This document shows positions 3,269 to 54,335 of a stretch of DNA of 64,000 nucleotides, one piece after another. Each line of letters opens with the position of its first letter. Position 1 is the first letter of the stretch. Source of the stretch: Paracyclopina nana. Taxonomy: Eukaryota; Arthropoda; Copepoda; Cyclopoida; Cyclopettidae. The position numbers and the translations under genes are program-made. The notes beneath the pieces are model-generated. The model was not told the origin of the DNA. It was given only the letters and a program-made list of their open reading frames with translations, and made no database searches. Location of the stretch: NCBI GenBank assembly GCA_019096065.1, contig JAGUCH010000004.1:2046001-2110000 (forward strand), read 5' to 3'.

Positions 3269-4580
<1,312 letters not shown>

Positions 4581-12229: not shown

Positions 12230-13565
<1,336 letters not shown>

Positions 13566-28500: not shown

Positions 28501-31500
28501 ACTTGGGTAAGAGCCTTTGATCTGAACTTTGCTAATATGAGCGCGTGTCTGTGTAAGCCAATGAATGAGTTTCAAAGAAAGAAACTGGCAGTACTAGAAC
28601 TAGTGCAGCTTTCGAATGAGATGGCAGTACACGAATTAAGCCATATTATGAATTATTTTTAATGCCTTAGGTTAATTAAAAAATACCAGCTTGAAGCCCT
28701 GTAACAATTTTCATCCAAGTAGCAGTAATTGTAGCACATCCTAATTTTACTAACAAGAATCAGCGCAGCTTACAAAAAATGAGCTTTTAAAAAATACCAG
28801 CTCTCCTACCTCTGTAGCAATTTTCACCCTAGCAGTGGCAAATGTAGCGAGAGCTAATAATATAAGGCTTTTAAATGTGGTGTTCATCTACGTCATTTTT
28901 CCTTATCATAAGGAAACTTGTGATTTCAAGACTCCGTCATTTTCGAACTTAGGAACATTATTTTACATTAAAACTATTAGGTATTAAAAAATCAACTTTT
29001 AAGAATAATTACCTACTCTTAGTTTTTAGCTTAAGCTCTCAGTACTTAAGTTATTCGCCAAAGGAAAAAGGCGTTAAAGATAAGGATTTTCCTTTCCCTA
29101 ATAGATGAACACCACATTATTAGTGCTAAGTGAAAAACGTTTTGAAAGCACTCGATCATTTCCTAATTTCAGCTACGTTGTGGGCGGACGGCTTTTGAAC
29201 ATTTTCACCGAGTTCTACTACTTGGAAGACTCTGACAACCATCTCACGCCCACAAGTCCTCAATGGATTGGCGCTTGGTGGCTCGGATTTCTTCTCATTC
29301 TCGTCATGAGCTACATTTGTGGCGCCCTCATTTCCATATTCCCTGCCAAGCTGCGGTTGCCAACTGAGGAGAAGATAAAGGAAACTGCAGCACCAGTTGC
29401 TGCAGATGACACTATGGAAAATGTTTTGGCGGTTGCCACACTGGAGTATGGGAGCCTCAAGGATATACCCAAGGCTCTGTATAACCTCATCACAAATCCG
29501 ACTTATATGAGCATTACTTTTGGAGCCACCATGGATGCGTTCTTATTAGCTGGTAATTCACTATGAGATCCAATTTTGCAAGCACTTAGCATAATCTTCT
29601 GCTTTTAAATACTTCACTTGGATGAAAATGCTGAAATTGGACTCTATTTCAGGGCAAGCAGCTTTTCTGCCCAAGTATTTGGAATCTCAGTTTGGCATTA
29701 CACCTGGAGAGGCCGCCATGATCGTGGGGTGCATCGTGGTTCCAGCTGGAGCTGGTGGAACACTCATTGGCGGATTCTCTTTGAAAAAGTTCAACTTGAA
29801 ACGAGAAGGGGCCATCAAAATGTACATCTTTTGCCAGTGTGTCATTTTGCCCCTTTACTTGGGCTTTCTACTTAATTGCCCTACTCCAGACATTGTAGGG
29901 CTGACTACACCCTATCAAGGAGAGTCGTACGTACAAAAAATGTCCTCTTGCAACCAAGGCTGTGAGTGCATTCCCCCAGAGGAATTGTCGAGGTCACAAG
30001 AAGGTAACTTTTTATACAGTATATATACTCTGTGTCTACTAGGTAGCGACAACAAAGCAGAATCGGGACATAAATTACCCTTCTTCATAAATTACTTTAT
30101 ATTAGAGACCAAGCAATAAATCACCTAATAACATAGTTAGATGGCCAGCCTTTTAAGTTGAAATTTGATGAGCAAAAATACATTCTAAAGTGTTAAAGGC
30201 TTGAATTTTGACGGTAGAACTCATTTAATCTATTTTCGCCATTTCCTTTTCAAAAGTGCCAAAAAGTTGAAAAATCGAAAATTGGCACTTTTGTCCCCCC
30301 TCTGCTTCAGTGGCGCCATCCCAATTGACAGTGAAAAAAGACTGAACTAAAGACCTTGATCCATTTACAAAAAATCATATACAGAGGCGCTGTTGCTAAC
30401 TGCATGTGATCAGTGCATATTCTATGAATGTCCAATACAGATTAAGGGGCTTTCCATGTGGTGCTTTTTTGACACTAAGTTACCAAAACTCGACACTACA
30501 ATCAGTGCTAAATTTTCCAAGTTACCGAAATTTGTCACATCACAGCACAGCACAACACAACACAAGCCAGATGAACTAAAGCATAAAAGTTTGTTTTTCA
30601 TGAAGAGTTACCAGACTAAGCAGAAATTCGTATACCTGAAATTGGTGTTTTTTGTAAGAAAAAGGGGATAAATGAATTGAGGTATGAAATAAAGTGTGTT
30701 TTGGTTGCTTGTTACATGTCCATCTGCCAGTCACTCCTTGACACTGTCACTATTGCGCATTGCATAGCACACAGTTACCATTTTTTGACACGATCACTCA
30801 TTTACTATTTGTTGACACACCACATGGAAAGGCCCCAAAGCTATTACTTTTTTGTAAGATAAATATCCTAGAAAAAATAGTGTTTGTTCTTCATCCAACT
30901 TTTTTTTCAGCATTTGTGTGCAGCATTCCAGATGGCCTAACTTACCTTAGTGGCTGCCATGCTGGTTGTTTGAATGGAATCGAGGACAACTTTTTTGGCA
31001 ACTGCACATGTCTGCAAGGCCTTGGAGGACAAACTTTGGTGGCCAAGGGCCTTTGTCCCACAGATTGCAACCATATCTACTTAGCTGTGATAATTTTCTT
31101 CCAAATCCTCTTCACATTCATGGCAACAATGCCAGGCCTTGTGGCAGGTCTCAGGTAAGCCTTTTTTCCATTCACTCCCAAGGGCTTCCAAGAGTAAATA
31201 AGATTCATATTAGCACTTTCGATTCATCATATGGAACTTGGGCATGCTTTTGAAAATGATGAAAAAGCTCTGTTGTAAAAAAAGCAATTTCAGCTTTTTA
31301 AATTGAAGCTGTACTTTAATTTTGAGTACAGTAGGGTTTTTCTGTCACTATTGAGAGAGCTGAAAAATATTCCTTTGGAAGATGCATCAACATTTGCTCA
31401 TAATGAAATTGGTTGTTCTTTTCGTAGCTACTTTATCAAATCAGTTATAATGCTCTGACGCTTTTTTATTCATTTCTCGGCAAGCATCTTTTGGTATTTT

Positions 31501-35000: not shown

Positions 35001-36217
35001 GAAATTTTCAGCTTGATCAAGCTTCAAGCTTTTTGAAAAGTGTTCGAGCGATCCCAAGCTTTTGAAAATTAGTATCAAGCTTTTTCAAGCTCAAAATTTC
35101 ACATTTCAAGCTTTTTTCAAGCTTTTCACTTTTAGTATTTTGACATAAAAAATGGCAATTAGCCACCAGATTAGACAAAATTACCAAAAAACATTGAAAA
35201 ATAGCTTTAACTTAGATTTAAGTACTTCACTCCCTCAAGTATTTGTTAATTTTAAAATCAGCCCTTTTTGTTTTGATTTAAAATGGATAAAGTTTTGAAA
35301 TTTTTTGGGGTCAAGCTTTTTCAAGCTTTGCATTTTTGGGTTCAAGCTTTTTCAAGCTTTTCAAAATTTGGTTCGAGCGATCCCAAGCTTTTTGCTTATG
35401 TAGCTCAAGCTGGGTTTCAGCTTCAAGCTTTCAAGCCAAGCTGAAACTCGTTCCATCACTACCATCTGGCTTGTGTTGTGCTGTGCTGTGCTGTGATGTG
35501 ACAAATTTCGGTAACTTGGAAAATTTAGCACTGATTGTCGTGTCGAATTTTGGTAACTTAGTGTCAAAAAAGCACCACATGGAAAGCCCCTTAGTCTGTT
35601 TTTTCTGATTTTTTCGACTGCGAGCTTTTATTGTTTTGGCTGTAAACAGCTGTCGCGCTGTAAGCTGTTCGCAAAATATTGACCTAAATGAAAATCTAGC
35701 TTGATTTTTCTCGTGAAAGCGCAATGGTTTAAAAATTAAAACTTCGGACTGTGATCACTGATGCTCAAGAATTTTGAAGTCGGAACACTCACTTAGATGA
35801 TCCCATCGAATCAATTTACCTGTCATGGCGAAACCGCTGATTGGGTAGATCCCTTTCGGAAACAGAATGTTGTACCAGGTCGCGTTAAAGTTGAATGCCT
35901 GTTGAATCATGAACAGACCACCATTGGAGATGAACAAGACATCGAAGATTCCCAAAGTCACCAGGAGCTGCAAATCAAGATTTTGAGCGTCCGACTTACG
36001 GAATCAAATGCATGACTGCCATTTTTACCTTGTAGAATAGACTGAGTCTGGATTTTGGCAGAGTCACAATGGCAACAATGGACAAGAGATTGCCAATCAA
36101 CCCGATCACTCCCAGCACTGACACGGCCACTCCAGGCCCCCAAAACCGCAAATTCTTCAAGAACTGGTCGTTGGGAGACTGCCGTTCACCGCAAACTGCT
36201 GGTAAGGTTTCGTTCAT
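32024..36217 (-). CDS. Class A peptide GPCR, FMRFamide-receptor-like
   Basis: Seven exons in phase: 36029-36217, 35820-35967, 33984-34138, 33750-33925, 33532-33683, 32863-33164 and 32024-32287; 461 residues. Seven membrane helices can be read: TM1 VSVLGVIGLIGNLLSIVAIV with the N1.50 Asn, TM2 LLVTLGIFDVLF, TM3 ending in ERY (E124-R125-Y126, the DRY position), TM4 followed by the DTPRFFE phrase typical of protostome FMRFamide-type receptors, TM5 ITTVALPFLTMMFCNLRV, TM6 LLIIFTCISATFIICHAPR and TM7 FNASANFVYYCFAGREFR (NPxxY replaced by NFVYY). The C-terminal tail is long. The usual disulphide cysteines (TM3 top and ECL2) are not evident. The intron 34139-35819 carries a MITE with a nested hAT-like insertion. 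The ligand is inferred only. Confidence 0.85.
34562..34575 (+). promoter_or_regulatory. CTCF-like core motif
   Basis: CCGCTAGGTGGCGG matches 13 of 14 positions of CCASYAGRKGGCRS. It lies in a GPCR intron. The deviation is the same as in the motif at 20007 (G for A at position 3). Confidence 0.35.
34714..35590. mobile_element. MITE copy 2, interrupted
   Basis: Inverted-orientation copy of the element at 30446-30836, in a GPCR intron. It begins GGGCCTTTCCATGTGGTG and ends CACCACATGGAAAGCCCC. Flanks are compatible with a TA target site (AATAAGGG ... CCCCTTAG). It is split by the hAT-like element at 34983-35461. Confidence 0.8.
34983..35461. mobile_element. Non-autonomous hAT-like element, 479 bp
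   Basis: Perfect 15-bp terminal inverted repeats TAGTGATGGAACGAG, flanked by a perfect 8-bp duplication CCATCTGG (34975-34982 and 35462-35469). The 8-bp duplication and the YAGTGATGG-type ends are diagnostic of the hAT superfamily. The interior has many subterminal copies of a CAAGCTTTTTCAAGC-type motif and no transposase. The MITE copy at 30446 has the single, uninterrupted target. Confidence 0.92.
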
Positions 36218-37300
36218 TTTTCTTACTTTGCTTGATGCAAGATGGCTCTAAAGAATCTGCATAGCTCGAGACCCTAGACAATACTGCTTTCGTGGTAGAG
36301 AGCATGCGATTTTGTCGCAGCTAAGAGAAATCGAGAGAGCCGGAGATCTATACTACTTGAGAGAAGCGGTAGACCAGAAGGCCTTTTTTGCCTCCATAAT
36401 AAAGATCGATTCATTTCGATGAATATTTTTCTTCACTTGTGCTTGGATCCATCATTTTTTCTCGTCATCTTGGCCTCATAAAAGTGTGTTGAGTGCACTT
36501 TTTCCTGAAAACTCTGAGACTAGTCCTGTATTGTGCATAATGCTGACTTTTCTTTCGAGCTTGAGCCCTCGGGTTAATTTCATTCTTAGGCTTCTAGCAT
36601 GCTCAGCACGCATTTCTTTGCATGCTTGTCAGGGCAAAAAAGGATAAAAAAAATTCTGTTTGAGAGCAATCACTGGAATTCCCGTTTCACACAAACAAAA
36701 TGCAGTAAGCTTAAGGCCTTCCATAAGATTTTCATGATATTGCTTTCCCTGCTTCAAAAGTCGGATTATTAAAGCTTCGTACTATCATCTAGCCTTGCAT
36801 AATTTGCTTTCTTATATAAATTGAAGCGCCGCACCAACTCCTATTGATTGCTGTCCCCGGCTGATCAATGCGGTTCATTCTATGTGGTCTTTTATGCGCT
36901 ATTGCAAGAAGTATTCCTTGGTCAATCTTAGGGCAGCGGTCACTAATTTAGGATTGTCATAGCAATCCATTTCGGTGCTCCAAACAAACAGCAAAGCTGT
37001 AAACAAGGTCCAACTTTCAGACAATTATTTACGCGTTACAGGGTATCAAGAAACGTTAAAAACCTTTTGCATGCACCCCTAACTTTTACCAAGAACTTCA
37101 TTACAATTTCATGAGCTTTCACATATTCAGCTTGCAAAATTATTTTAAGCGTGGAGGTAATTGCTTTTCAGTTGTCTGAAAAAAAGCTCACCTTTTTAGT
37201 AATGAGCCCTCAAATGACATTGCTATGGGCATGAAATGTTGATGTGTCTTCATTGGCAACACCTTTTATACAGTAATCAAATGACTTGCCTTCTACTAAG
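36218..37300. other. Intergenic, divergent promoter region
   Basis: Separates the GPCR start (minus) from the giant mosaic gene (plus). A TTTTATAC TATA-like string is at about 37265, some 35 nt before the mosaic gene ATG. Nothing else was recognised. Confidence 0.4.
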
Positions 37301-38892
37301 ATGGCTAATTTTTTCCCTGTGATACTTTTTATTCTAGCTTACGTAAGGACAAGTGCTAGCATTGCTGCTGGAAGCGTCAACGGACAATGGTCTTTGTGGT
37401 CTGATTGGGGATCTTGCTCAGTGTCATGTGGAGGTGGAACTCAATCACGTACCAGGACTTGCACAAATCCAGCTCCGTCTGGAGATGGCTTGCCTTGTGC
37501 TGGCACTCTAAGAGAACAGTTTCGAAATTGCGGAACTGAGCTTTGTGATTCTAGTAAGAAAAGCTTTCAGTGTGACGTCAGAGCTATTATCTTATTTGCT
37601 TACTAGGATGCTACGACAATGCCTATTACGATGTGACAGATGTATCCAGCAATGCAAAATCAGTTGTACAAAGCGAGGTGGAATGCCAAAAAAAGTGTGC
37701 AGCAGACAGCACTTGCGTTTTATGGCAATGGGCGAAATCATTTGTGAGGAATGAAGCAAATAATACTTGCATTTTGAAAAAGAAGCCTGTAGATGCATCG
37801 AAGCGCTTAACCTACACCGGATACGTTTCTGGTCCTCCTGCATGTGGTGAGTGCATATTCAAATCCTATTCGAATTGCTGGCCTGTACTATATGAAGATA
37901 TTTTCAAGATTTTCCAAGGTGTCCATCAACTCATCCATATGCATTCAGCGGAGGTTCTAAGTGTTGCTCTAAGGATACTGAGGCCAACACCGGTGCTGAT
38001 GGATGCAAAGGCAATGCCATAAGCTATTATGGCAGTACTTGTTGTAGCGGAGCTGAAGTAGCTTGTAGTTTAGGCGCTAACTGCAGAAACGGTACTTATA
38101 ATGCATTTTTTCAAGTTAAGGGATACCATTACATTTTCATTTTAGCCCTGCTTCAAGAGTGTGCTAATATTGGGCAAAAATACGTGAAGCGCTCAACTGT
38201 GTATTCTCACGATGACAAAAGTGCAGCCGACTGCCGCAGCGAATGTATGAATGCTTTTTGGTGCACAAGGTGGTACCAAGCTGCTGATAAAGAGGCAACT
38301 TATGATACATGTGACTCCAATGGTGAGAGTAACAAATGTCCAAAGGATTGTAGTTGTACCGATCGTGATAGTGGTGGAAGGCCAACCACAGATTATACAG
38401 ATGCGGGGAAAAAAGGTGAATGTCATGGATATGGCGATGGCCAATACGTCAGCAGGCGGGATAAGAGAGACTACGACACATATTGGAATGTTTATTACAT
38501 GGGAAGTCCTAGCGATTGTCAATTCACTCAGATGTGTAAGTCTTTTGTGTACCTCCTCGATTCATTTATTAGCCTGATTCATACCTTATTATAGACTGCC
38601 ACAAGGATAACGATAGAAAGTGCAACCGTACTCTTGTGATTGGAACCATGAATAGTTGTTTGGCAGTTGGGTTTCAGCCTGCAACAATTCGCCAGGACGT
38701 GGGGTACACAAGTCCACTCACAGCCGAAGAATGTGCAAAGGCTTGCCTCGATAATTCCATGTGCTCTCATTGGGAATACAATGGGGGATGTTGGATGTAC
38801 TATTACGATCAAGTTTACGAATCAGACCAAACAAAGGAAGATTTGGTGGATGATTCCAACTATATGGTTGGAATGAAAGAATGCCAACCATG
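37301..38892 (+). other. Mosaic block 1: TSP1, PAN, CC-rich module, PAN, PAN
   Basis: Exon 37301-37553 has the signal peptide and a TSP1 repeat (WSLWSDWGSCSVSCGGG, RTCTNP). Exon 37607-37843 is a PAN/apple module (CYDNAYYDV ... CQKKCAADSTCVLWQW). A module at about 37918-38090 has two vicinal CC pairs (SKCCSKD, GSTCCSG) and eight Cys in about 57 residues. Exons at about 38146-38534 and 38595-38892 are two more PAN-like modules (CRSECMNAFWCTRW; CAKACLDNSMCSHWEY). Confidence 0.75.
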
Positions 38893-41800
38893 TAAGTATT
38901 TTTTTGCTAAGGCCAACCATTTGAGTAGCTAAAGCATATTCACTAACAGCTGTATACAATGGCGGTTTGACAAACTGGGGTGTTTGGTCATCTTGCTCCA
39001 CATCGTGCGGTGCGGGAAAGCGGTCCAGAACTAGAACTTGCCAAAGACCTGTTCCATCAGTTAATGGGAAAGATTGTTCCCCAACTTTGCCTTTGTACCA
39101 ATTGGAAGACTGCAATGTGGCTGCTTGCCCTACCACGCCAGTTGGAACTTGGAACGAATGGGGAGCATGGAGTCCTTGTTTTTCTGCCCCATCAACAGGT
39201 ATTTTGATACAGAGAAAACTTGCTCCATTTTTAGTGACATGGGTTATTATCATTAGGCATAATTAATTTTGCCGTTGGCTTGGTTGTTGGTGGCGGGGCC
39301 AAAGGAATTCATTACAGGCACAGGACATGCCAAACAAAGCTGTGTACAGGAAATCACGAAGAGTCGGAGGAGTGTACCTCTTCTAAAAGAAAGAAAAGAC
39401 TTGTACCTTCGGTTGGGGGTGTCATTGATGCACTGGTAGGATCATCAGGAGGTACCACGACTACTGCCAGTCCTATTGCGTCGGCTAACGCAATTTCTGC
39501 GAATCTCAAAAAGCATTGTCCGATGGGATTTCAATACAGCCTGGGGTAGGCTCTTTTTTGAGTTATTTTGACATTTGCTGACATATTTCTGATTTCAGCG
39601 ATGCATGCTACTTCATCAGTGACTTGCATACCACAGCCTCAGAAGCTGCAGTTTTGTGTGGCCTGATGAGCGGGGCAAGGCTGGCATCTGTAACGCAAAT
39701 TGAAGAGCTTAACGACCTTAGATTGGTACTTCCATCCGGCATGAAACATTGGATGGGTATGTCGAAAGGATCAACTACCTCTGATCCTATGATACTTTCT
39801 GATGGTCAACGAGAACTTTTTGAGTCGACGTTTGCTGCTCAACTTGAGTCCCCCAGCTCTCTTAGCTCGACTGTCTGCGCAGATTGCAAATGTGTGTTTT
39901 TGGGAGACGACTTCAGGCTGTACTTTACACCCTGCTCTGACAAAAGGCCTTTCGTTTGCGAGCTAAAAGGTATTCATCTCATAACTTTTAGCATAGCTTT
40001 GATATTTTGACAAATACAAATGTTTTAGGAGGCCCATCCTGTCCAAATGGAATGGTATCTTTCTATGGTCGTTGCTTTGGTGTCGTGAAAAATGTCAAAT
40101 CGACTCCTGATAATGAAAACTGCAACTACGAATCTGGGTCTTCTAGCTATGAAGTGGCAGATCTTAAAAACGACGATGTAATTCTTGAATTCTTACCTAG
40201 CTGGCACCCTTGTATTTCCAACTGTTAAAATATCAATTATTTCAGCTTTTCCTTGAAATGGTTGGTCATTTTCTTGACTATAACTCAGCCAGGCCCTATT
40301 TTGTTATGACCATCAATGCAAAGACCATAGGTAAATCCTCAAAATTGTCTTAACTTCGATTGACTGACTTAGTTTTTACAGACAAATTGCCAGTGATAGC
40401 TGGTGGAACTGGCTCATTTTATGGGCTCTCATTTGATTCCGACAAATGGAGTGTTAAAGAGTTTGATACAATGGCTGATGCTTACTCATTATGCACTTTT
40501 AAAAGTACTTTAAAAGCTGTTTTTAATTTATTTATTTACTTTTAAATTTGTTTTTGTATCAATAGGCCGTGACCTACAATGTGATTTCAACAGCCCGTTT
40601 TGGGAGGAGCACGACTGCGCGTGGTTTTATAGCCAAGCTATGATGTACAGCCTCAATTTTGGACCAATGTCCAAGTTTCAGCGAGTGAATGGCAATACTG
40701 AGGTGGTGATACCGAATTACTGGAGGAGACCCGATGCTAAACTAGGTGATATTCTATTTTTCATTCGATGCACTGACTCGGGAAATTAAGATATGCAAAT
40801 CAATTTCAGACAATTATATTTTGGCTGGGTACACAGAAGGCGAATATCATCTGATTTCGCCTGAACTTTTGGAAAACGGACCTCGATTGTTTTACCCTCA
40901 CTTTGGCTTTGCCTTTAGAGCCAAAAATACCAAAGTGAAAGTGCTTATTCTTGAGGATGGAGACCCTTCCAAAGTTCACACTGTTTGGGACGTGCTATTG
41001 GATGATGAGCATAGGTGGGATTATCTGGGAAAGAACTTAACTGATGTTGCTTTTCTCAACGACCTCTGGACTGCAACCACTCCGTCTGTTAAGAAATGGA
41101 GGCTGGTGTTACATTTCAGGGTTGAATATCATGGTTTCATTTTAATTGACAACTTAGGTAAGAGATTCTTAATGGGTAATGTTTCAAATTCTGTAATGTT
41201 CTCCTCGATTTCAGGTCCTTGTTCGCTGGAAGAGGTTTTCTTCCCTCAAGAATCGTCATCGGGTCATAGAATTGGAAGCTGTTATAGAATTCAAGTAAAG
41301 AATCATATCGATTCATTAGTGGATCTCTTAAGCTGACGTTAGGATATTTTCAGATGAATGGCAAAGCAAGATATTATGATGTAGATAACATTTGCCTAAG
41401 TTCATCATCAAGGGGCTCCATGAGGTCTCCATTTAGTAGACGAGATCCTGAGTTTCATTTGTTCTATTCTACATTGGACTTTTATATAACTCCAGCCTCT
41501 GGCAATAGGTGACATGTCAATGTCTCCTTAACAATTCAATACTGACGCATATTCTTCACTAGAATTTGGTCCGGGATCCGAGATAAGTTTTCTTCATTTA
41601 ACCCGCCTCATTCTTACACTGATGGGTCTTCATTTCTTGAGGGTGATGGCACCTCAAGATATCCTGATTTGTATTCCTAGTAAGTTTTAATGACTTTTTG
41701 AATGGTTGGATACATGTTATCTTATTTTTTAATTCCAGCAATTACAATTCTGACTTGGAATACCTTGTGGCTCGTGGAGTTCATAAAGGCTGCCCAACCT

Positions 41801-44800
41801 CTTATTTGCCTCAGTCAACCTCTATAACGAGGCCTTCTCTCAGTGGAAGCACGCTCTCAACATCAAAACCAAAATTCTCTACTTTTTGCTTCAGTATGAT
41901 TTCTCATTACTATTTTTACAATTATCATGCAAAACATATTGCCTTCACTAGGTGCAACAACTTACCTGGGATGCTACAAAGACAAATCAAGCAACCGTGC
42001 AGTAGAAAATTTCATTGGAAATGCATCGAGTGTCGCTGATTGCTACAATAAAGCTAAGGCTGGATACGCGATATTTGCTCTGCAGGTGAATAGCCACTCT
42101 GTTTTTCATAATTAAGACGCTAACTTTGTTGATGAATATTTTCAGGATGGGTATTCGTGTTATGGAAGCAACAGCCTGACGAATTATAATAAATACGGTG
42201 GGAGTAGTGGTTGCTGGAAGGGGAAGGGTGGCAATGACGCCAATAGCGTTTACCTCGTGAACAAACGATGCCTATCAGATCCTATTGCTTGTCAAGAGTA
42301 TGTTCCGTTTTCTGGTTTCTACGAGGGCAACTCTGCAGTCAGTTTGTGTCAGAGTTTGGGTGGAGATGCGTCCCACGTTGCAGCCGATGATGGCTCAACT
42401 TACACAACAGGTTGGCAAATATTTATCACACATGTAAAGCTTTCTAACACTATGCAATGTCTATTTTTAGTTCTTTCTGGGTTCATGTCTGCTTATGGGA
42501 AGGATGATGTGAGGAAGCGGAATTATCCTAGAACTTACGTCACATGGGCTCAGGCATGGGGAAATTTGAGACTTTTGGCTCTTCAAAAATCCTACCATGT
42601 TAGTACCAATTGTGAACTTCAGACGGCGTATGCTTGCCAGAGACCAGCCGCTGCTATGGAAGCTTCGGAAGCAAACGGTATGAGACTTCCATAAATTGTC
42701 GAAAAAGTTATTGGAATGATTCACTCGCTTTTTAGCATGGAAAGGCTGCTATTCAGTTTCCAGTTTGCCAGTCACCGAGCAAGTCCCTGCCTATTCTTCA
42801 AACTTTATGACAATTGAATATTGCTATCAAGTGTGCAGAGCCAAGAATGAATCTTTGTTCATGATGGGCATTGAAGTCACCAATTGCTATTGCTTTGATT
42901 CTCTCCCGGGAGCTGGTCCATTGTCAAATAGGCTTTGCCAAGTCAAGTGTCCTGGAGATAAAGCTCAACTCTGTGGTGGAAAGGGAGCCATGTCAGTCCA
43001 TGTTCTTGGAAACGACACTGTTGAAGATGTCATGATCATGATGGGAGGAAAGAAAGACGATTTCTACACTCCCATTAAAACAAGCACGGTTATTCTTTCT
43101 GGAGGGAGAGAGTGCTCAGACCATGATCTACCTGAAGCGCCCAATGACTATGTTAGTGCTGGTCACACAATTGTCGATGATTACTTAATTGTGCGCTGTG
43201 GAGGACATACCTATGAATCGAAAGCCTTAAAAGGTATGATATTTTTCCCGAAAAATCTCGGAGGAAGGCTAAAAAAATTAATTCATGTTAGGTCCCTATC
43301 CCGAATGCTTCTCATTGGACCTGCGGGAGAAGCCATGGGAATGGAAAAGTGACACCTTTCCCCCGCTTCCGATTGCGACCTCTTCTATGGCGTTTCAGTA
43401 TGTCAAGAGCATCAACCGTATTTATTCATTGGGTGGTTTTGATTCAGCTGGAGGAAAGTATTCAAAAACCAGAGTGAGTTTACTGCTCGAGGCTAATAAC
43501 TTGTCATTTTCTCCTAATTATCACTTTGATCTCGTCAAACTTTTCAGGTATTTGTTTACGACTTCACGAGCAAGGCATGGAGGACAAGTGGCAGAGGAGT
43601 TCCACTCAATACTTGGTACAATTATGATGTCTCGTCCGTTGTTGATGGCTATTTCATCTACATATTCGGAGGAAGATCTGTGAAAGGAGATGGAAGTGGC
43701 TCTTCCTCCAATTGGGGCAACATCTATTGGATGGACGTGAGAACTGAGAACTGGGCGTACAGAGAAATGAAAACAGGTTCTGTTTACTTTATTCCCTATA
43801 ATATCTTCAAGTACTTATCAAATTCAATTTCCTAGAAAACCGATGGAACGGTGGAGTTGGCCTGATCAAGGGAATGTATGGAATCAATTCAATACTTTCA
43901 CTTGGCGGAATCAGAATTGGTTCCAGTGACAGTTTAGGCGAAACGGAAGAAGGAGAACTGCTTGTACTTGATAACAGTGATCCAAAACAGTGCACTCAAA
44001 TTCGGCTGAAGAATTCTTACTCAACTAAAGAAGGGCTGTTAATTGCTCAACTGGGCGATAGCGTCGTGGCAGTTCCTGCTGGTCCTAGCGGCCGCAATAA
44101 TAACAATGGAAAAGACATTTTTGTTTGGAATTACGAAGATGCTTCGCTCAAATATGTTGGGGAACTAGCCACTGCCAGATTAGGAGACTACAAACTCATA
44201 TCTTCGGGAAAATACTTCCCTAAATGCAGAAGTAAGTGTACCTTTCAAAATAGCATCTTTGAGCTGAAACCGTATTGTGTTTAAGGTAAAAACTATGTTT
44301 TTACGAAAACGTACAGTACATGTTGGGACGCTGTTATACTTGGTGGAATTGTTCCCAATCCGGGACAATCAGTTGACGTTAAACTTACTGATGATTCTGT
44401 CAAAGCATGCACTATGGAAAATTTGCATGATCAAGCCCTCAGTTGTCCTATTGGGTGGTATGGAAAAGCATCTGATGAAGCGTGCTTTTTGGTGAAGACT
44501 GAAGCTGTTGATAATGAGGAAGCTGCCCGCCAATGCTACCAAGAGGGTGGAGATCTCTTGCAGGTTGAATCTAGCGCAGAAGACGAATACGTGATAGCCA
44601 TTTTGACTAGCCGAGAAAAATATGGGTTGCCCTTACATCCTGGCTTTTACCATACTGGGTTGCACCAGAGGAATTCAGGCAACCAGTACTACTACCGCAA
44701 TGGTGCTAGAGTGACGTACACAAGGCCTAAGCACGTCTCGGTTTTGGCTCAAGATACAAGCTTGCCATGTGTTGCTTACGGTCCCATTGAAAATTCTCAA

Positions 44801-47800
44801 TTCACATACAGATATCATTGGAGAGATGTGCCGTGCTCAACAAAAGCCCCGTTTGTCTGCCGACACAATCCTGACTTTATGGGGTTCCACAAAATAAGCC
44901 ATTTAAACGTTGCTGCGACAGTTGACATAAGAATTCCATCTATGTCACTCACATCTTGCCTGGCCATATGTCATGCCACTGCTGACGCGAGCCAAATTGC
45001 TTTTGTGTTGGAAGAAAGATGCGTTTGTGCCAAAGACTCGCCTCAGTTCAGGAAGCCCATAATTAAAATCAAAGATAGTGCAAGTGGCAAATATCTCACT
45101 GCTAAAGATTTGGATGCTTCTGTGGCTTTAGAGGCGAGCTCTACCGCCACTGATCAGCAATGGGTTTGGAACGCAAACAGTTTAGAGTCAGTTTCCAAAG
45201 CTGGTGCAGTTATCACTCTGAGTGCTGACTCCCAAAGTTTCCTTCTCTCAACGTACGCAGCTGGATCAAGGTCTCAAGACTTGGTGCTTCGTGGAAGCTC
45301 ACTTGTCAATCCGAGCTTGAAGAAAGCAGTGCACTATGACGGAACAAATGTCGTGGCTCAAGAGACTTCTTCTATTCAATGGGTAGCTGAAGAGGTAGAC
45401 TCGTCGTCCACAAGTTCACCATTTGAGAGGTATCCTGCAGACAAAAAGCTCCCTTCTGGTGCTTGGCCATTCAATTGCGAAAAAGTGATTCCATGCGCCG
45501 ACATTCCCCATCAAACGTGTGGCTGCGACGTTAATGGCAACGATGGCACTAAAGAAAAACGAGGCATTGTTTACTATCTTGGCACGGGATCAAAGCTTTC
45601 CACTATAATTGATTTCAAGTCTTGCGAAGAGCTCTTTTTTCACGGGGTTGCTGTTGGAGGATACTTCAAAATCAACGGAGCAAAAACGTATTGCAACAGT
45701 TGGAGTGAGACAAAAAAAAAAAAACCATGCGAAAAGTGCATTATTACATGTTTCAATTTTCAGATGCCGACTGTGGAAGGGGATTTACGAGACTAGAGAA
45801 TTATTGCTTCAATGTGTCAGCAGAAGTGGCCACAACTGCTCAGATCAAGGATAAGTGTACTGAAAAGGGCGCTGTTCCGCTAGTGACTGAAACTTCGGCA
45901 ATATTTTTCCAACTAATGGTACTATAACGTAAAATATTAAAAATCTAGATTTAATGCTTTTAATTAAAGGAATACTTGCAACAAAATGCCGATAGCTCGG
46001 ATGTTTGGAGTGATTTCTCTGCCACTGGATCCAGCATGAGTGACTTTAAGAATGCAGATACTGTTCCCAAGTCAACCACCGATCTCAACATGGATTTTGC
46101 GTGGAAAGATAACGCAATATTTGCCCCTGGTTGTACTCAAATGAAGTCATCAAATGCGTACAAGCTCGAGCCTACTCCATGCACTGGTAGTGCCCGATAC
46201 GTTTGCATGAAGCCAGTATGTCCGAGTGGTTTTCAGTGGTATGACAGGCAAAGTTGTGCCTTGGTTGTGAATACAGCCGAGACTAAGGATGATGCTCTGA
46301 CAAAATGTAAGGCCATCCAGCCATCTGCTACCATGATCATGCCTCAGTCAGAACATGAGCAATTGAAAATGAGTCAGTTCTTGAAGAGGGCCTCACTGTC
46401 GTCAAACATATTTTTGGGTGCCAAAAAAGCTTCAGATGGTCATTGGTATTGGGATGATGGAACTGCAGTCTTCTTGGAATGTAATACAGAGAGTTATTTT
46501 TCTAGTCATTCGGTTTTTTATGACATTCCTCTCATTATTTAGATCTTGATTGGTCGGCAAATGCAACGGCGAGATATGGAGCTCTGTATAGCTCCTCATA
46601 TCCAAGCAGTGTCATTCTGGATGGTAGGGTTGGTTCAGACTCGACATTCATTGTTGGCACTGGCAAAACTCATCTAGGAAAATTTATTGAAATCACGCTT
46701 CCTGAAACTCTGCTAATATCAAAAATCAAAGTTTTGACATATGTAAGCAAACTCAAAAGTTTTGCTTATTATAAAAGATTATGTGCATTCTTGTATTTTT
46801 TAGGGGTCTTCGTCTGTTTATTATGATCGATATTTGGATGCTCGAGTTGGCGATACAGTTGTTGCCGATGACTTGGCTGATGATGAGAATACGAGATGTG
46901 TGTACAAGACTGACCCGCCTGAAGATTACAGTTTTATGGTCTTTGATTGTCCTCCACCAGGAATCATGGGAAATATCGTAACTATACAGGGCAACTATGG
47001 CATCTATTACTTCGGAGGATTTGAGATAGAATTTCTGGGTAAGATTTAGAAAATAATCCTTTTTTGATTGATTCACGCTTTTCAATTACATTAGGGTGCC
47101 CTAATACGTTCATCCACTTGAACAACAAATGCTACAAAATGATGAAGGCTGAGTCTTGGTACAACAATTACATTGAATGCCAGGAATCTAGAGGAGTCTT
47201 TATTCACTTGCACGACAGCTTGGAAAACCAGAGAGTGGCAAAGAAGCTCATGAAAAGCTTTTCAGTGACTTCCATTTATAGTGGTTACCAGAGGCATCCT
47301 AATGAAACATCTTGGACTTATGACTACTACGAGCATAAAGCAGCATCTGATATCCAAATTTTTGGGGGTGATGTGACCACTTTAATTCGGCATAGAGTGG
47401 TTGTGGCCACTCTGCTGGCAAACGACACGTTTTTGTTCTCCTCAATATACGGCCATTTCGAGGACGAGCAAGGATACAACGCTATTTGCGAATACAGTAA
47501 GTCTTGAGCTTTATGCAGCCAATGCGATTTTTAAAAATGTCATCTTGCAGTCGGAGACAAAACCTATACAAATTGGGCTGTCACAAATGAAGAATTTGAG
47601 CCCATAAGTGGGAAAAACTGCATCAAGACTTGTGTGGGAGGAACTGATGCAAGCTGCACAGGTCAATGGAGGGTAGAAGATTGCTCCACTCAACTACCCT
47701 ATGTCTGTCAACTGAATTGTGAGCAATAATTTTTCAATGCTTATAGGTTAAAATTGGACAATTTGTCTGCTTACTAGATAATTGCCCCGAAGGTTGGGTC

Positions 47801-50800
47801 TCGTGGGACAACTCTTGCTACAAGCTAGAAACTGATGCAAACCTTCTATTGAGCGAAGACAATGCTAGGACCCATTGCATGACATCCTACAATTCTCACC
47901 TGATGGTGCCAAATTCCAGAGATGAGTCAGTTTTCGTGAATGGATACCTAACTGGAATGCAGGTGATAGCTCTCTGATTGACATAGGGAATCAAGTATTG
48001 AGTACTCTTTTGATGTTACAGCAAGCAATTATTACTGGGTCGACTCCTTTTGCTGGTTATGTTGGTGCAACTCTCACGTCGAAAGCTCGATACGTAGAAT
48101 TTGAAGATGGTTACTTCATGACCGATGGCGGTTTCTTGGACAAAGACTCCACAGACTACACTGCAGTCTATGGAAGTGGTGCTATTCCCTCGTGCTTTCA
48201 AATCCTCGACGGTGATGTTTCCGCATGTTCGTCCACTTATGTCCTCTGCGAGAAGACTCTCTATGGTGACTCTGAGATTTGCTTGCCAAACTCGGTTTTA
48301 TCTAGCGATGTGACTACAAATGCAAGCACCGAGATGACTGTGTCTAGCGTAAGCATTATTATTTTGTGGCCACATAGCCAGCATCATAGCAATTACGATT
48401 ATTTTTCAGTACATGACATCTAGCATGTGTATTGAGTATTGCCGAGGCTCCTCAGAAAACCACAAATACGTCGCTATAGAGGCATCAAAATGCACTTGCG
48501 CCACGGCCATCTCGTTTGACCCTTCGAAGCAGCCGAGTGCTGAGGCAGGGTCGACCAAGTTGCCATTGACTTCCTGTCGTCTGGGGCACGCTTCTTCGTT
48601 AATCGGAGATGCCACAAACCAAACTGCTTCTTTCTACAATATTGACTACAGTCGGGCTTACCACGGCACCAAGTTGGCGTCGACTACATGCAGAGTGTAT
48701 GAGCACGAATTGTTCTACACGCAGCAAGAGAAGTTTGACAGATTCACCCTCCAATATGAAACTGGAAGGCCGACGTTGAAGGCGCAATGCTTGTACAAAA
48801 GCAACGGAATTTGCCAGTTTCCCTTACTGCAGAGCTTGGCCTCTTCAAGGTAGTAGAAGCGCTGCAAGAATTGATTTTAATTTTAAGATATAATTTGCCT
48901 GCTTAATTCCTAGCTTTTCTGTCGAGGGTGGAGTGGCGTTGGGTCGACCAGACAAAATATCGAATCAAATGTACATAGATAATGCTTACCATGTTGCATA
49001 CCTTACCACTTACACTGCCAAAAGTGAGTTGCAAGCAGATGGCAAGACTTATTTCTGTGCAGATGATGAGTGCAAAGTTTCGCCAACCAACTCCACGGAC
49101 GCTAGTTTATTTAGTAGCGTCAAGCTTGTGATACGATTTCCTCAGCCAACTTTGATTCTTGGCATTTGGTGGTCAACTGGTTATCCTGTTGACATAACCA
49201 ACGGATACCTGAGACGAATCAGAACCATGGAATATAGATATCCTGACTTGAACGGTGACAAAATCACCAGCACGGTCATCAACCAAGTCTACAAGAGTGC
49301 TAATAGCGAGAAGCGAGCTCATGAGATCACCTACTTTCCACAACCTATCATCACTGAAGAGTTGAAGCTATTCAATTTGCAATATACAGCTGGGCGATAT
49401 CCCGGAGAAACTACCTTGAATCATAGAGTTGGTCACGTTATAAGGTTCACCATGGAGCTGTTTGGCTGCCCCAAATTTCAACTCGATAAAGGTAACGAAT
49501 TTACATCGTATATCAAATTAATGCTGTATATATATGCTTCTTTTTAGTGTACTGTCCTGACGGCTGGTATTCGAGCAAAGGCTACTGCCTTAAAGCTGTC
49601 AAATCAGCCTCTGGCTTGAAATATGCTGATGCCAACGCCAAGTGCGAAGAGCTCGGTGGATTTATATTAGAGCCTATGAATGACATGTACACCGAGGACC
49701 TCAGAGAAGTGCTCACCAATTACACTGCGAATACTAACGAAACGGCTTGGTGGATCGGTAAAATCTTGCCATAAACCTTCAATTACATGGCTTGTACATA
49801 ATATGATATGTCTCTAGGCATTGAGTACTCTTACAATGACTTCAGGAGAGAGGAGATATTCCAATTTGTGAGCGGAGTATTCATTTTGGATATTCATTTT
49901 CAACACTGGGCATCCACGTAAGCATATACATAATAGCATATATCAATTTTATCAATTACGAAGCCTGTAAATATGATACTTTCCAGGCATGTAAATGAGA
50001 ATGGCAGGTGCGTGAAAGCGGCTTTGGATAGCAACGGTGACGTTGTTTGGGTGAAGTATTCATGTGACGATACAAGTGGCAAAGGTGTCATTTGTGCCAA
50101 GAGAAACGTGTGGGAACAGATTGAAGGATGCTACGTGCAGCCTCCTGCCGAAGCAACCACAGGAGCTCCAGTGGCGATTTCACCAGGTGATCAAGTTGAT
50201 TCACCTCACTTTTGCAGAGAACACTGCAAAAGCCAAAACCCACCCTCGAGATATTTTGACATTGATCAGGCCAATAATTGCCACTGCATTGATGGCCCAC
50301 TACCAACTGGAGGATTCATCAGTGAGGAAACGTGCGCCATTCCCGAGTGCTCTGACAGCCAAAATCCAGCTACGGACAATTGTCATCCTCAAGATGGCTA
50401 CAAGAGGACTCACCTTTATAGGACTTGGGATACGAGTTGTCCTCCACTCACGCCTAACATGACCTCGCACTTCTTCTACGTGTGGGAGCACCATGGCAAT
50501 TGGCACTGGGGCTCAACAGCAACTCTGAGGTGCATTCCTGGCTATGAAATCCCAAAGGAGTACATGTCCAACTCCAAATCCTACCATCCCATCTTTGACT
50601 TTGACAACAACACCCAGACAATTAATTGCGCCTACAATGAAAGAACGGGAGGATATTGGAAAGAGGATATCGTCGAATGTGTCCCCGTGAATTGTGACTT
50701 CCCTCCTCCGGCCATTCCAATTGAGACAACAAGGACCGTCGAATTCGCCATGAACATGACCACTCTGCAGCAGTTTGAAACCACGCTCACCTACACGTGC

Positions 50801-53800
50801 CCGAAGAATAACACCTTGCCAATGTTGCTCAGAGATGAGTACAGCTTCGACTATGATGTCACCAAGGGCATCATTCAAGATGTAATTGTCACGTGTGAAA
50901 TCGACGGCGAATGGAAAGTGGAGGGCGGCGTTACGGGGGAATCTTGCCCTGATGGACAAGACGAGAAGTGCCTTAAACCTGTCATTCCCGATTGCGTTGA
51001 CAGAAATCCCTACTGCACGTTTCCCCCAGAAATTCCCAAAAATGGGATACGCAAGATTGTGAACAAGCCTCTGGCTGACTACTGGATTGTACCGGATACA
51101 CAGCTCACCTACTCTTGTCCAACACCCTACTGGGCCTTCGATTATCCATACGATGAAAGCCTGCCTTCGTTTTACTTCACCAAAAATGTCAATAACATCA
51201 CCATCCGATGCAATCGAACTGGCTACTGGGAGTACGATTTTGGTATCGAAGGCTCCACTTGCGTGAACAAGCAACCGGATGGCACCTGCGAGAGAATTGT
51301 CATTCCCGATTGCGTTGACAGGACTGTCTACTGCAAGCCTCTCACGACACCTGGCAATGCCACTAGGACAATACTGAAGCAGCCCAACAAGGACAATTTG
51401 AAGGAGCTGGACACGAAGATCAAATTCTCTTGCCCGCAGCCAGGCCACTACTTCAACTACAGCCTGCCAACACCATTTGTGTCCTACTTCTACAGTACGA
51501 ACATCAAGGAGACCACGTTAACCTGCAACGCTTATGGCACCTGGGTTGTGGAAAATGGTATCAATGGGGAAACGTGCTCCGACTACAAAGATGGGGACAG
51601 TGAGCTATGGTGCGCCTATGTCGAAGTGCCTCCTTGCGTGGACCGGTCGATCCTCTGCACGGAGCCTCCAAAGCCAGCAAAAGCCAATTTGAACTACACT
51701 GTGCGACCCGATAAAACTAGGCACGAGGCCAGCACTAACATCCTGTACTCCTGCCCTGATAGGCTGCACTACTTTGACTATCCTGTGGGCCCCAACTTTA
51801 TCAGCTACTACTACACAAACAACATCAACTTCATCAATGTCACTTGCACGATCGACTCTGTCTGGGAAGTCAGGGGCGGCATCGAGGGAGTGACGTGTGC
51901 TGACACCGATCCGAACGTTGTGAATGATGTGCTCTACTGCAAAACTCTCAACATCCCGGATTGCAAAGATCGCACTGTCTATTGCTCGTTTCCTCCGGAT
52001 ACCATCGATGGAGGAGATGTGACGATTGACGTCAATCCGAGTCCTTTGTACCAAAAATCCACCGGCTGCAGATGGACCGAGTGGCTGAACACTGGCAAAG
52101 GTGGCCGCGGAGACAACGAGCTCATTCCGGATTTGGTGAACAAGTACACGTGGTCGGTGTGCCCCAATCCTACTGACATCAAAGCCAGGATTGCCTCGAC
52201 GAAGAAAGAGGTGCCCAAAACTGGAGGTCCTCAGCAGTACAGCAAGTACGACACAGTGACGGGATTTTCATGCAAGGACTCGGAGCAGTTTTCGGGGCCT
52301 TGCTTTGATTATGAAGTGCAACTGTGTTGCCCTCATGGGCCTGAAAATGGTACGGTGGTCACGTTGACGTGCAACACCAAAAACTGGTACCTTGACTACA
52401 CTGACACCAAGTTTTTGACCACGATGACGGCTAGATGCACCAATAACAGCACTTGGGTCTCCGATGTGCAGACATTGACCTTTTGTCCGGATAAGAGCAA
52501 CGAATGCGAGCTGCCTAAAATGCCGGATTGCCAAGACAGAACCATTCTTTGCCTTGATGATCTTCCTATTCCTGAAGGATTAGTCCAAGTCAACGTGACT
52601 TCAAACGACACCCTAAATAACTATGCGTATGGTGCTGCTTACGAGTACAGCTGTAAGAAGGATGGATGGGTCATTGAAATGCCGAATTATCCGGAAATGG
52701 TTGTTGTCACCTGCGTGGAGCCCCCTGGGTATCCAAATGAAAATTGGTACTATGGCATTTGGAACGACGGAGTTTGGAAGCACCAGGTACATAATGAGGA
52801 AGTTTATCTTGAGCTATTCACCAGCTAATTGACTTTTTTAGGGAAACTTGACCCGATGCATCGATCCTAATAGGTGCTACACTGATCCTCCAGTTTTACC
52901 CACTGACTACAGCGTGAAATACAACCAAACGGAGGCTGCGCCCAATTACCTCAACAACACCTTGAATTACACATGCTCTAAAACATGTAATTATAGCTAT
53001 GATAGAAAGGCCATGAACTGTGACAGCAACTGTTTTTTTTTATTATTTTAGTTTGGGTATTCAGGATCCCACCCAAATACGAAAACTGTGACTTGGCACC
53101 AGAAGAATGTGATGCTCTGGGGGCTTTATTGCTGCATGAGTTTGACCAGTCAGTGTATGCTCCAAGTACTTTGTTGGTAACTTGCGAGGAAGGTCAAAGA
53201 AGTGATGGCCTTCCCGACTGGACTTGGAGAGCTGAGGGCTACACTTTCCATAGGCCAATCCCTAGGTATTCAAAAATCACGCTTGAACTAAAAATGGGAT
53301 GTGTTTTTATGACCTTTTCAGCTGTTACGATCCAACATTTTGCTATGATGATCCTCCTGTTCCTCTGGCACCGAATGCGCTGTACAAGAAGCCTCCATTG
53401 GGCTCATTTAAATATCTGGATGGAGAGAAAGTCATATACACGTGTGAAAACCCCATCTACGTCTTTCCCCAATTCGATGGCACGCCAAAGGATTTGTGGA
53501 AGAGAACCATGGAAGTCAAATGTGGTTGGGCTAATCAGTGGGATCCACCTGTGGTTCCTGGTTGCGTCGACCCTCGGGGCTGCAAGCCTCCCCCAGCGAG
53601 AAATCAGAGAATATGGGGCTCCTACGAAGACACCTACGGATCACTTGATGTCGGAGCTGTGTATTGGTACGAGTGCAGAGGAGGTAATCTTAAAATATAT
53701 ACGATTTCCACCTGAAAACATCGACTGAATGGCCTCCTGTTATTTAGGTTTATTTGATTTCGGTAATGGCACATTGGCCAAGAGCATTGATTTGACCTGC

Positions 53801-54051
53801 GTCAATGATGAGTATGGAGGTGCTCCGTATTGGCTGCCAGCTTATGACCATGATGCCACGCCCTTTCCAAAGTGTATATACCTGCGTAAGTTCTTTCAGG
53901 GAATTTTGTGGACCTGAGCAAATCATTGAGAGCATTCATAATTTATTCGTGTGCCCAATTATATTTTCTTTTCAGGTAATTTCGTAATAAGCTTTTACCT
54001 AGGTTACTTTCATAACATTTTAGTGCTAGTAAGGAACATCGGAGTAAATTA
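37301..54051 (+). CDS. Giant secreted lectin/adhesion mosaic protein
   Basis: Very large multi-exon gene (about 35 or more exons, roughly 4,000 residues by span). It starts at ATG 37301 with signal peptide MANFFPVILFILAYVRTSASIA. Domain order: TSP1, PAN, CC-rich module, PAN, PAN, TSP1 (two), C-type lectin region with a jelly-roll-like part, GCYKD/WSC-like, lectin, WSC, kelch repeats, lectin, WSC-like, ricin-like trefoil, lectins, discoidin, two lectins, WSC-like, discoidin-like, lectin, WSC, then a long sushi-like array with an inserted WxxW domain. All exons run on one strand with short introns, and no second signal peptide or gene break is seen. A split into two or more genes is still not excluded. 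The 3' end is uncertain: the exon ending at about 53884 could splice at 53975 and stop at 54051 with a hydrophobic tail. An AATAAA lies at 54336. Likely extracellular recognition, adhesion or cuticle/mucus function. Confidence 0.75.
38951..39549 (+). other. Mosaic block 2: two TSP1 repeats and Ser/Thr linker
   Basis: TSP1 repeat LTNWGVWSSCSTSCGAGKRSRTRTC, then a second, split and degenerate TSP1 (TWNEWGAWSPC ... RHRTCQTKLC) interrupted by a short intron. Next come a basic KRKKR stretch and a Ser/Thr/Gly-rich linker before the first lectin domain. KRKKR could be a furin-type cleavage site. Confidence 0.7.
39508..41885 (+). other. Mosaic block 3: C-type lectin domains and jelly-roll-like segment
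   Basis: 39508-39967 is a C-type-lectin-like domain (CPMGFQYSLG ... HWMGMSKG ... RPFVCELK). 40029-40350 starts a second (CPNGMVSFYGRCFGV) with exons joined across a 66-nt intron. 40811-41158 has a beta-rich segment ending FILIDNLGPC that resembles a MAM/jelly-roll end. 41211-41885 contains further degenerate lectin-like exons. Calcium-binding EPN/WND motifs are not evident, so sugar binding is uncertain. Confidence 0.55.
41951..43014 (+). other. Mosaic block 4: GCYKD/WSC-like, lectin, WSC
   Basis: LGCYKDKSSNRAVENF ... CYNKAKAGYAIFALQ, completed by the next exon (YSCYGSNS ... GCWKGKGGN), is a WSC-like carbohydrate-binding module. A C-type-lectin-like region follows (42266-42680, ending TAYACQRP). 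A clear WSC domain is at 42737-43014 (GCYSVSSLP ... YCYQVCRAKNESLFMMGIEVTNCYCF in pieces, ending QLCGGKGAMSVH). Confidence 0.7.
43015..44230 (+). other. Mosaic block 5: kelch-type beta-propeller
   Basis: Several kelch blades with the GG-plus-aromatic pattern: VILSGGRECSDHDLP, IYSLGGFDSAGGKYSKT, FIYIFGGRSVKGDG with WMDVRTENWAY, and ILSLGGIRIGSSDS. Four to six blades over five exons. An extracellular kelch propeller inside a lectin mosaic is uncommon. Confidence 0.75.
44414..45760 (+). other. Mosaic block 6: lectin, WSC-like, ricin-type trefoil
   Basis: One long exon. The C-type lectin part runs from LSCPIGWYGKASDEAC to APFVCRHNPDF. A short WSC-like Cys motif follows (SCLAICHATADASQIAFVLEERCVCAK). 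Then comes a segment with ricin-B-like repeats carrying Q-x-W motifs (TDQQWVWN, SSIQWVAEE) and ASGKYLTAKD. The end has a Cys cluster (CEKVIPC, CGCDVNGND). A run of 11 A residues near 45714 sits close to the donor. Confidence 0.6.
45766..47041 (+). other. Mosaic block 7: lectin, half lectin, discoidin
   Basis: 45766-46215 is a C-type lectin domain (DCGRGFTRLENYCF ... SARYVCMKP). 46220-46490 starts another (CPSGFQWYDRQSC ... GHWYWDDGT) but stops after the WxWxDG region. The next exon passes straight into an F5/8-type discoidin-like domain (ATARYGALYSSSYPSSVILDG ... LGKFIEITLPE ... GGFEIEFLG, 46543-47041). The second half of that lectin domain is therefore missing. Confidence 0.65.
47095..49485 (+). 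other. Mosaic block 8: two lectins, WSC-like, discoidin-like
   Basis: 47095-47717 is a lectin domain over two exons (CPNTFIHLNNKCYKM ... YTNWAVTNEEF ... LPYVCQLN). 47777-48280 is a second (CPEGWVSWDNSCYKL ... STYVLCEK). 48413-48690 is WSC-like (MCIEYCRGSSENHKYVAIEASKC in pieces). 48690-49485 is a discoidin-like beta-sandwich (SVEGGVALGRPDK ... VIRFTMELFGCPK). Assignments of the last two are tentative. Confidence 0.55.
49548..50345 (+). other. Mosaic block 9: lectin and WSC
   Basis: C-type lectin domain over three exons (CPDGWYSSKGYCLKAV ... ETAWWIG ... GKGVICAKRN). A WSC domain at the start of the 2.8-kb exon follows (IEGCYVQPPAEAT ... FCREHCKSQNP ... NNCHCIDGPLP). Confidence 0.7.
50350..52786 (+). 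other. Mosaic block 10: sushi-like array in one 2.8-kb exon
   Basis: Part of exon 49987-52786. Tandem units of about 105-115 residues are each headed by (I/V/M)P-D/P-C-x-D-R-x2-x-C (PDCVDRNPYC, PDCVDRTVYC, PPCVDRSILC, PDCKDRTVYC, PDCQDRTILC). Each continues with an L/I-x-Y/F-S/T-C-P strand and a T-C-x3-G-x-W strand, as in complement-control (sushi) modules but longer and with few cysteines. Many N-x-S/T sites suggest heavy glycosylation. The fourth DR-type unit is interrupted by a WxxW domain. Confidence 0.7.
52058..52335 (+). other. WxxW (mucin CysD) domain
   Basis: STGCRWTEWLNTGKGGRGDNE, VCPNPTDIKAR, TGFSCKD and GPCFDYEVQLCCP reproduce the order of the mucin WxxW/CysD domain (C-x-W-T-x-W, G-D-x-E, C-x-x-P-x-x-I-x-A-R, C-x-D-Y-E-V-x-x-x-C-C). 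It is placed inside a sushi-like unit and contains an R-G-D tripeptide. Confidence 0.85.
52842..53884 (+). other. Mosaic block 11: terminal sushi-like modules
   Basis: Smaller exons continuing the array: RCIDPNRCYTDPPVLP, DPTFCYDDPPVPLAP (53335 onward, ending VPGCVDPRGCKPPP) and a last unit with LAKSIDLTCVNDEYGG. The C-terminal exon beyond 53884 is unresolved. Confidence 0.6.
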
Positions 54052-54335
54052 GACGTCAATTTGCTTGACGAAGTTATTGCGCAAGGTGAGACTGAATCTA
54101 AGGGATTTAATTGCTTTCAGAAACATGGTCAATATGCATTGCCATGGTACGGCGCGTACCCGTCTAAAAAAGTTTGATTTCATAGGGAGTGACAATTTGA
54201 AATCTTTGATTAGTTCACTTTCATCATTTGCAATATTCCTTTTATTCATTTTTGGAATAACTTGCCAATTATTATGTTTTGTTTTTCTTTCCGGATTTCA
54301 TCAGAATATGTCCAAAATGACTCCAGGAATAGCCA

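Follow-up and report, generated by a model that had tools for sequence, protein, structure and literature searches.

We analysed a 64-kb window of the genome of the copepod Paracyclopina nana (contig JAGUCH010000004.1, positions 2,046,001 to 2,110,000), in which the first-pass annotation had placed one very large mosaic gene at 37301–54051. A gene model for this region was obtained with a restricted gene finder, followed by hand correction of exon borders at the start, around amino acids (aa) 1205–1221, at exon 45970–46480, at 49818–49917 and at the 3' end. The resulting model runs on the + strand from an ATG at 37301 to a TAG ending at 54052, which agrees with the annotated span to one base. 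It comprises 43 exons and encodes 4746 aa with zero internal stops. The 42 introns are all of the GT-AG type and measure 51–90 nucleotides (nt) each; 27 of the 42 are in phase 1, as is expected where modules were shuffled. An AATAAA is located ~285 bases 3' of the stop codon.

When the finder was trained on the corrected gene it recovered 41 of the 43 exons, together with spurious extra exons at both ends. Training on the window gene and its paralog gave a score of 1404 on the forward strand, with a chain of 4766 aa; the reverse strand scored 14, and three shuffled versions of this stretch scored 8–11. These controls share training data with their target and are partly circular, the independent test being the collinear paralog. 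This second gene was found in the genome scan (92 Mb, 10 contigs) on the minus strand of contig C3 at about 1,004,500–1,023,500. After parts of its model had been trimmed or masked, 3596 residues were aligned to the window protein at 32% identity. The two proteins run in the same order from residue ~452 up to the C-terminal end, and 150 of the 160 aligned cysteines are kept. The collinearity argues for one real gene in the window. Together with the frame that stays open over 43 exons, these sequence comparisons indicate that the locus is a real single gene on one strand, as had been annotated, and a giant mosaic of predicted extracellular modules.

Modules of the predicted protein

The encoded protein is predicted to stack about thirty extracellular modules; coordinates given below are those on the + strand of the window. 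Its first 20 residues (37301–37360) resemble a signal peptide in a hydrophobicity scan. The same scan, based on hydrophobicity only, revealed one further, weak hydrophobic segment near residue 530, inside the TSP1 region, and no clear membrane anchor or transmembrane segment above threshold elsewhere in the 4746 aa. This suggests that the protein is probably secreted, in line with the first-pass annotation.

The protein was scanned against Pfam piece by piece, with a permissive listing to an E-value of 5 and with the family cut-offs applied. TSP_1, PAN_4, Lectin_C, WSC, Kelch_6, Kelch_4 and Mucin2_WxxW were detected at or above cut-off. The N-terminal part holds TSP1 domain 1 (aa 31–82; 37391–37546) and a PAN-like domain (aa 86–160; 37609–37833), for which PAN_4 scored 27.0 bits, exactly its cut-off. 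A second PAN-like domain (aa 370–450; 38636–38878) matches PAN_1 and PAN_3 under cut-off, and is followed by TSP1 domains 2 and 3 (aa 461–580; 38967–39384), the third with an insertion and with boundaries set by eye. TSP_1 matched three stretches, and its match to the window protein reached 1e-17.

Lectin_C was above cut-off in four of the six pieces (8.7e-7, 7e-17, 1.9e-6 and 3.4e-5). Seven stretches were listed at the permissive E-value and about ten domains can be seen by eye, two of them half-length, a range that brackets the "about eight" of the first-pass annotation. Domain 1 (aa 625–756; 39517–39965) carries the 8.7e-7 match and was recovered in the genome scan at 4.5e-6; domain 3 (aa 1055–1221; 41220–41892) was assigned by eye and is kept in the paralog. 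Domain 5 (aa 1912–2051; 44444–44863) was matched by Lectin_C and in the genome scan (5.7e-8), and its region finds PLA2R (2.4e-7), MRC2 and LY75 among its matches in the PDB. Domains 6 and 7 (aa 2335–2553; 45772–46479), the second half-length, lie in a piece with three Lectin_C stretches, domains 8 and 9 (aa 2700–3028; 47097–48255) account for two stretches, and domain 10 (aa 3401–3539; 49553–50098) carries the 3.4e-5 match.

A regular-expression search of the whole protein was used to locate sugar-binding motifs. An EPN or QPD motif plus WND is the mark of calcium-dependent carbohydrate-binding C-type lectins. EPN was absent from the whole protein and QPD from every lectin domain; the single QPD (3931) and the single WND (4427) both fall in the sushi region, and WRD at 2037, WKD at 2428 and WDD at 2544 lie within lectin domains. 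The lack of EPN and QPD in these domains makes classical calcium-dependent sugar binding unlikely for most of them.

The WSC domain at aa 1425–1508 (42738–42989) was detected at 1.7e-17, and at 2.2e-12 in the genome scan. The repeated WSC units that had been annotated hold for two stretches at E-values up to 5, both in the piece that contains a WSC-like unit recognised by eye (aa 1222–1306; 41893–42265); three further fragments are WSC-like by eye only. In the kelch region (aa 1520–1858; 43023–44230), Kelch_6 and Kelch_4 were above cut-off, as was Kelch_1 in the paralog, and Beta-prop_ATRN-LZTR1 reached 0.0003, far under its cut-off. The scan thus establishes kelch repeats and falls short of the complete propeller previously claimed.

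The C-terminal array (aa 3640–4722; 50399–53887) gave no direct Pfam sushi match in the window protein, and the repeats' own profile found complement proteins in the PDB at chance level only. The profile of the window repeats did match that of the repeats in other mosaics on contigs C7 and C5, described below (hhalign 96.2%, E 2.4e-9, 57 columns). The C7/C5 profile in turn matched complement receptors and regulators of the CCP type, at best at 7.5e-30, a value owed partly to the many repeats per chain, and two-module fragments at about 1e-7. Because the window profile matches its relatives' repeats and these match complement CCP proteins, we accept the array as divergent sushi repeats of the four-cysteine CCP type, an assignment made through the relatives only. 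C-type lectin, WSC and kelch, by comparison, were confirmed by Pfam directly.

A Mucin2_WxxW domain (2.9e-13; aa 4196–4284; 52067–52333) lies inside this array. In aligned sequences it interrupts, by eye, a single sushi-like repeat after the first of its cysteines and before the second. The same site in the paralog holds an extra PAN domain, so that 52067-52333 marks a domain-in-domain insertion point. A C6 domain match (0.012) and WD-40 matches in the C-terminal repeats were taken as chance. For a single sushi-like repeat, the structure model (pLDDT 55.7) found nothing in the PDB at E <= 0.001 and was left unused.

The ricin-type trefoil and discoidin modules of the first-pass annotation are probable, on matches below threshold. 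For the trefoil-like region (aa 2109–2245; 45035–45445), RicinB_lectin_2 stayed below threshold in the window gene and the paralog alike (0.087 and 0.037). A two-sequence profile placed ricin-type lectins at the top of the PDB list (0.013), whereas the single-sequence search of the PDB found no ricin-type lectin; a trefoil structure model (pLDDT 34.6) was also left unused. For the discoidin-like region (aa 2554–2699; 46480–47040), F5_F8_type_C_2 was sub-threshold in the paralog only (0.031), and an F-type lectin fragment appeared at 0.9 among five chance-level PDB matches. A MAM-like domain (aa 877–1055; 40504–41222) matched MAM at 0.086 in one of three aligned members and was otherwise assigned by eye. 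The discoidin-like and MAM-like identities are suggestive. A second trefoil/discoidin-like region (aa 3116–3396; 48578–49484) was assigned by eye only. TSP1, PAN, MAM and WxxW modules had been missing from the earlier module list.

A close paralog within a wider set of mosaics

Pfam detected TSP_1, Lectin_C, WSC, Kelch_1, PAN_1 and Mucin2_WxxW in the C3 paralog. In the genome search the C-terminal repeats of the window gene matched only this paralog at E <= 0.001. The WSC–kelch–lectin–trefoil core also matched it, with weaker matches at C3:9.38 Mb (7.6e-6) and at C4:8.80 Mb (0.0019). The genome scan yielded two Mucin2_WxxW matches, one in each gene of the pair. WSC gave seven matches outside the window gene, five of them distributed over the paralog and other mosaics; the genes that hold those at C4:775 kb and C4:8.80 Mb appear unrelated by eye, resembling a xylosyltransferase and a receptor kinase.

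Mosaic genes that combine WSC, lectin domains and FN2 are also located at C7:3.08 Mb, C5:91–160 kb and C5:3.69 Mb, in provisional models some of whose ends are wrong. At C5:91–160 kb, FN2 and lectin matches form four sets in tandem, of which the last three are almost evenly offset and only the first was modelled. At C3:9.38 Mb, WSC, lectin domains and a cysteine-rich module occur in a partial relative (provisional model). The best reading of these sequences is that the window gene and the C3 paralog form a close pair inside a broader group of giant mosaics.

One long gap in the paralog (C3:1,020,001-1,021,800) holds a ~800-base repeat that is present in dozens of copies, mostly 92-97% identical, which makes a recent spread probable. 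Genome-wide, FN2 gave 38 matches and LNR (PF00066) at least 38, with 150 of 437 candidates scored. These counts recall other copepods, namely the salmon louse with its FNII expansion and Oithona nana with its LNR burst, which has been termed unique in metazoans (PMC8301441).

Candidate roles of the mosaic

The predicted protein may work like the mannose receptor family, attractin, polycystin-1, lecticans or mucins, but it does not appear to be a member of any of them. As in the mannose receptor family (MRC1, MRC2, PLA2R, LY75), there are tandem C-type lectin domains and a possible ricin-type trefoil; unlike them, the window gene has no FN2 match or transmembrane segment and carries many extra modules, and its trefoil is internal and weakly supported. 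Attractin and MEGF8 are single chains that join an extracellular kelch propeller to a C-type lectin domain. The window protein shares kelch repeats and C-type lectin, but lacks a membrane anchor in the hydrophobicity scan and has no CUB, EGF or PSI match in Pfam except a chance-level CUB_CDCP1_1 at 2.9. In polycystin-1, a single extracellular region contains both WSC and C-type lectin, as in the window protein, but the latter has no multi-pass membrane region and no Pfam match to PKD or REJ. Drosophila Furrowed, the vertebrate lecticans and the selectins join C-type lectin to sushi repeats, Furrowed also having a discoidin-like domain; the window protein shows the same pairing but has far more modules, including kelch, WSC and WxxW, and no membrane anchor was found. 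The WxxW (CysD) domain occurs in gel-forming mucins, and in CILP it is combined with TSP1, as in the window protein; unlike the gel-forming mucins, this protein has no VWD match in Pfam and no long Ser/Thr-rich stretch visible by eye.

The module types are known, and their order looks new as judged against open PMC text. No published description of it was found in the open PMC full text, a search that cannot prove absence; the first-pass annotation, too, had known of no named protein with this order.

We tentatively favour a reading in which this single gene encodes a giant soluble secreted mosaic that acts as a multivalent crosslinker or scaffold in a gland or surface secretion. The N-terminal signal would take the protein out of the cell, where it would stay soluble because no membrane anchor is evident. 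The tandem lectin-fold, WSC, trefoil-like and discoidin-like modules could then offer many weak sites for glycoproteins and other matrix molecules, most lectin folds serving as a protein-binding scaffold rather than as calcium-dependent sugar binders, and the sushi array, PAN, TSP1 and WxxW modules could provide protein–protein contacts and stiffness. Together, the modules might form a crosslinker in an integument coat, mucus, cement or an egg or spermatophore covering. A possible parallel comes from the salmon louse, also a copepod. No other domain is as expanded in this species as FNII, and its exocrine tegumental glands express three FNII genes, for which roles in lubrication, anti-fouling and the coat have been proposed but not demonstrated (PMC7201535). 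In other mosaics of the P. nana genome, FN2 occurs alongside lectin and sushi-like repeats, as an analogy to LsFNII1-3 would have it.

Several points weigh against this reading. Immune, developmental and reproductive roles suit the module list equally, and part of that list comes from sub-threshold matches or from inspection by eye. The Pfam scan gave no fn2 match in the window protein, unlike LsFNII1-3, which makes the gland analogy indirect. Both structure models were too poor for use.

We regard as rather doubtful the more specific proposal of a new family of giant soluble lectin–sushi mosaics in arthropods, probably in copepods, in which a recognition half (lectin folds, trefoil, discoidin and kelch) is fused to a CCP tail that has a WxxW domain nested within one of its repeats. 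If true, such a fusion would function in the manner of a lectin–complement opsonin built as one chain, or of a modular mucus organiser. No long-standing question is settled by the window gene alone. It would nevertheless illustrate the extent of exon shuffling in a compact arthropod genome, with modules of the mannose receptor, attractin, mucins and complement in one probably secreted chain, and it provides a defined gene pair for probing the role of giant secretions.

The first-pass annotation had put forward pattern recognition, adhesion and mucus scaffolding as candidate functions. Non-self recognition is the main rival to the scaffold role. It is possible, if on balance improbable, that the protein is a humoral pattern-recognition or opsonin-like molecule whose lectin, trefoil and discoidin-like modules bind microbes and whose sushi tail recruits or controls effectors. 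The absence of EPN and QPD from its lectin domains counts against this, and kelch and WxxW are, to our knowledge, not typical of such proteins. On the other hand, the module classes are typical of recognition proteins, the wider set of lectin mosaics includes some tandem copies, and a mannose receptor of shrimp, which carries FNII and two lectin domains, is reported to act in innate immunity (PMC10341498).

We consider it unlikely that the protein is instead a structural or developmental matrix or cell-surface protein of the attractin, lectican or Furrowed kind, for example in the cuticle or nervous system. The combinations of kelch with C-type lectin and of lectin with sushi recall such proteins, but neither a transmembrane segment nor the CUB, EGF and PSI domains were detected, as described above.

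A merger of two or more adjacent genes, or of an operon, by the model is very improbable. In its favour, window residues 1–451 have no counterpart in the paralog model, save a TSP1 cross-match; the paralog, whose N-terminus is only partly modelled, carries a lectin domain ahead of its TSP1 instead. The final exon (53976–54052) is also the least secure, and the reading frame, if unspliced, would stop at 53917. However, the frame is open across introns that never exceed 90 nt, module order is kept in the paralog from residue 452, and the paralog's one long gap contains the high-copy repeat. The first-pass annotation had named separate genes with their own signal peptides as the refuting result; the sequence gives this no support, the N-terminal segment and the weak one at residue 530 being the only hydrophobic segments in the scan. 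A decayed gene or an artefact is scarcely credible, since hand-set exon borders and a partly circular scoring control are set against 4746 codons without a stop and the conserved cysteines.

Other features of the window and genome

Two long actin frames lie in inverted orientation at 3272-4273 (-) and 12561-13562 (+), with E-values of 4.6e-129 and 1.1e-128. The stretch between them abounds in tandem repeats, one of which, at 7772-9104, has 7.2 copies of a 186-base unit. Exons of an OATP-type transporter were detected at 28079-31155 (+), one of them with a sub-threshold Kazal-like stretch. Upstream of the mosaic gene, a short frame at 35999-36247 (-) has no Pfam match and resembles, by eye, the first helix of a rhodopsin-type receptor. 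In the genome as a whole, the nuclear receptor domain zf-C4 gave 73 matches, some of which are halves of one domain; this seems many for an arthropod. An arthropod host, as opposed to a sponge, rotifer, nematode or tunicate, is indicated by the TTAGG repeats observed at four of the ten contig starts, two other starts being masked, and by 80 matches to the RR cuticle domain.

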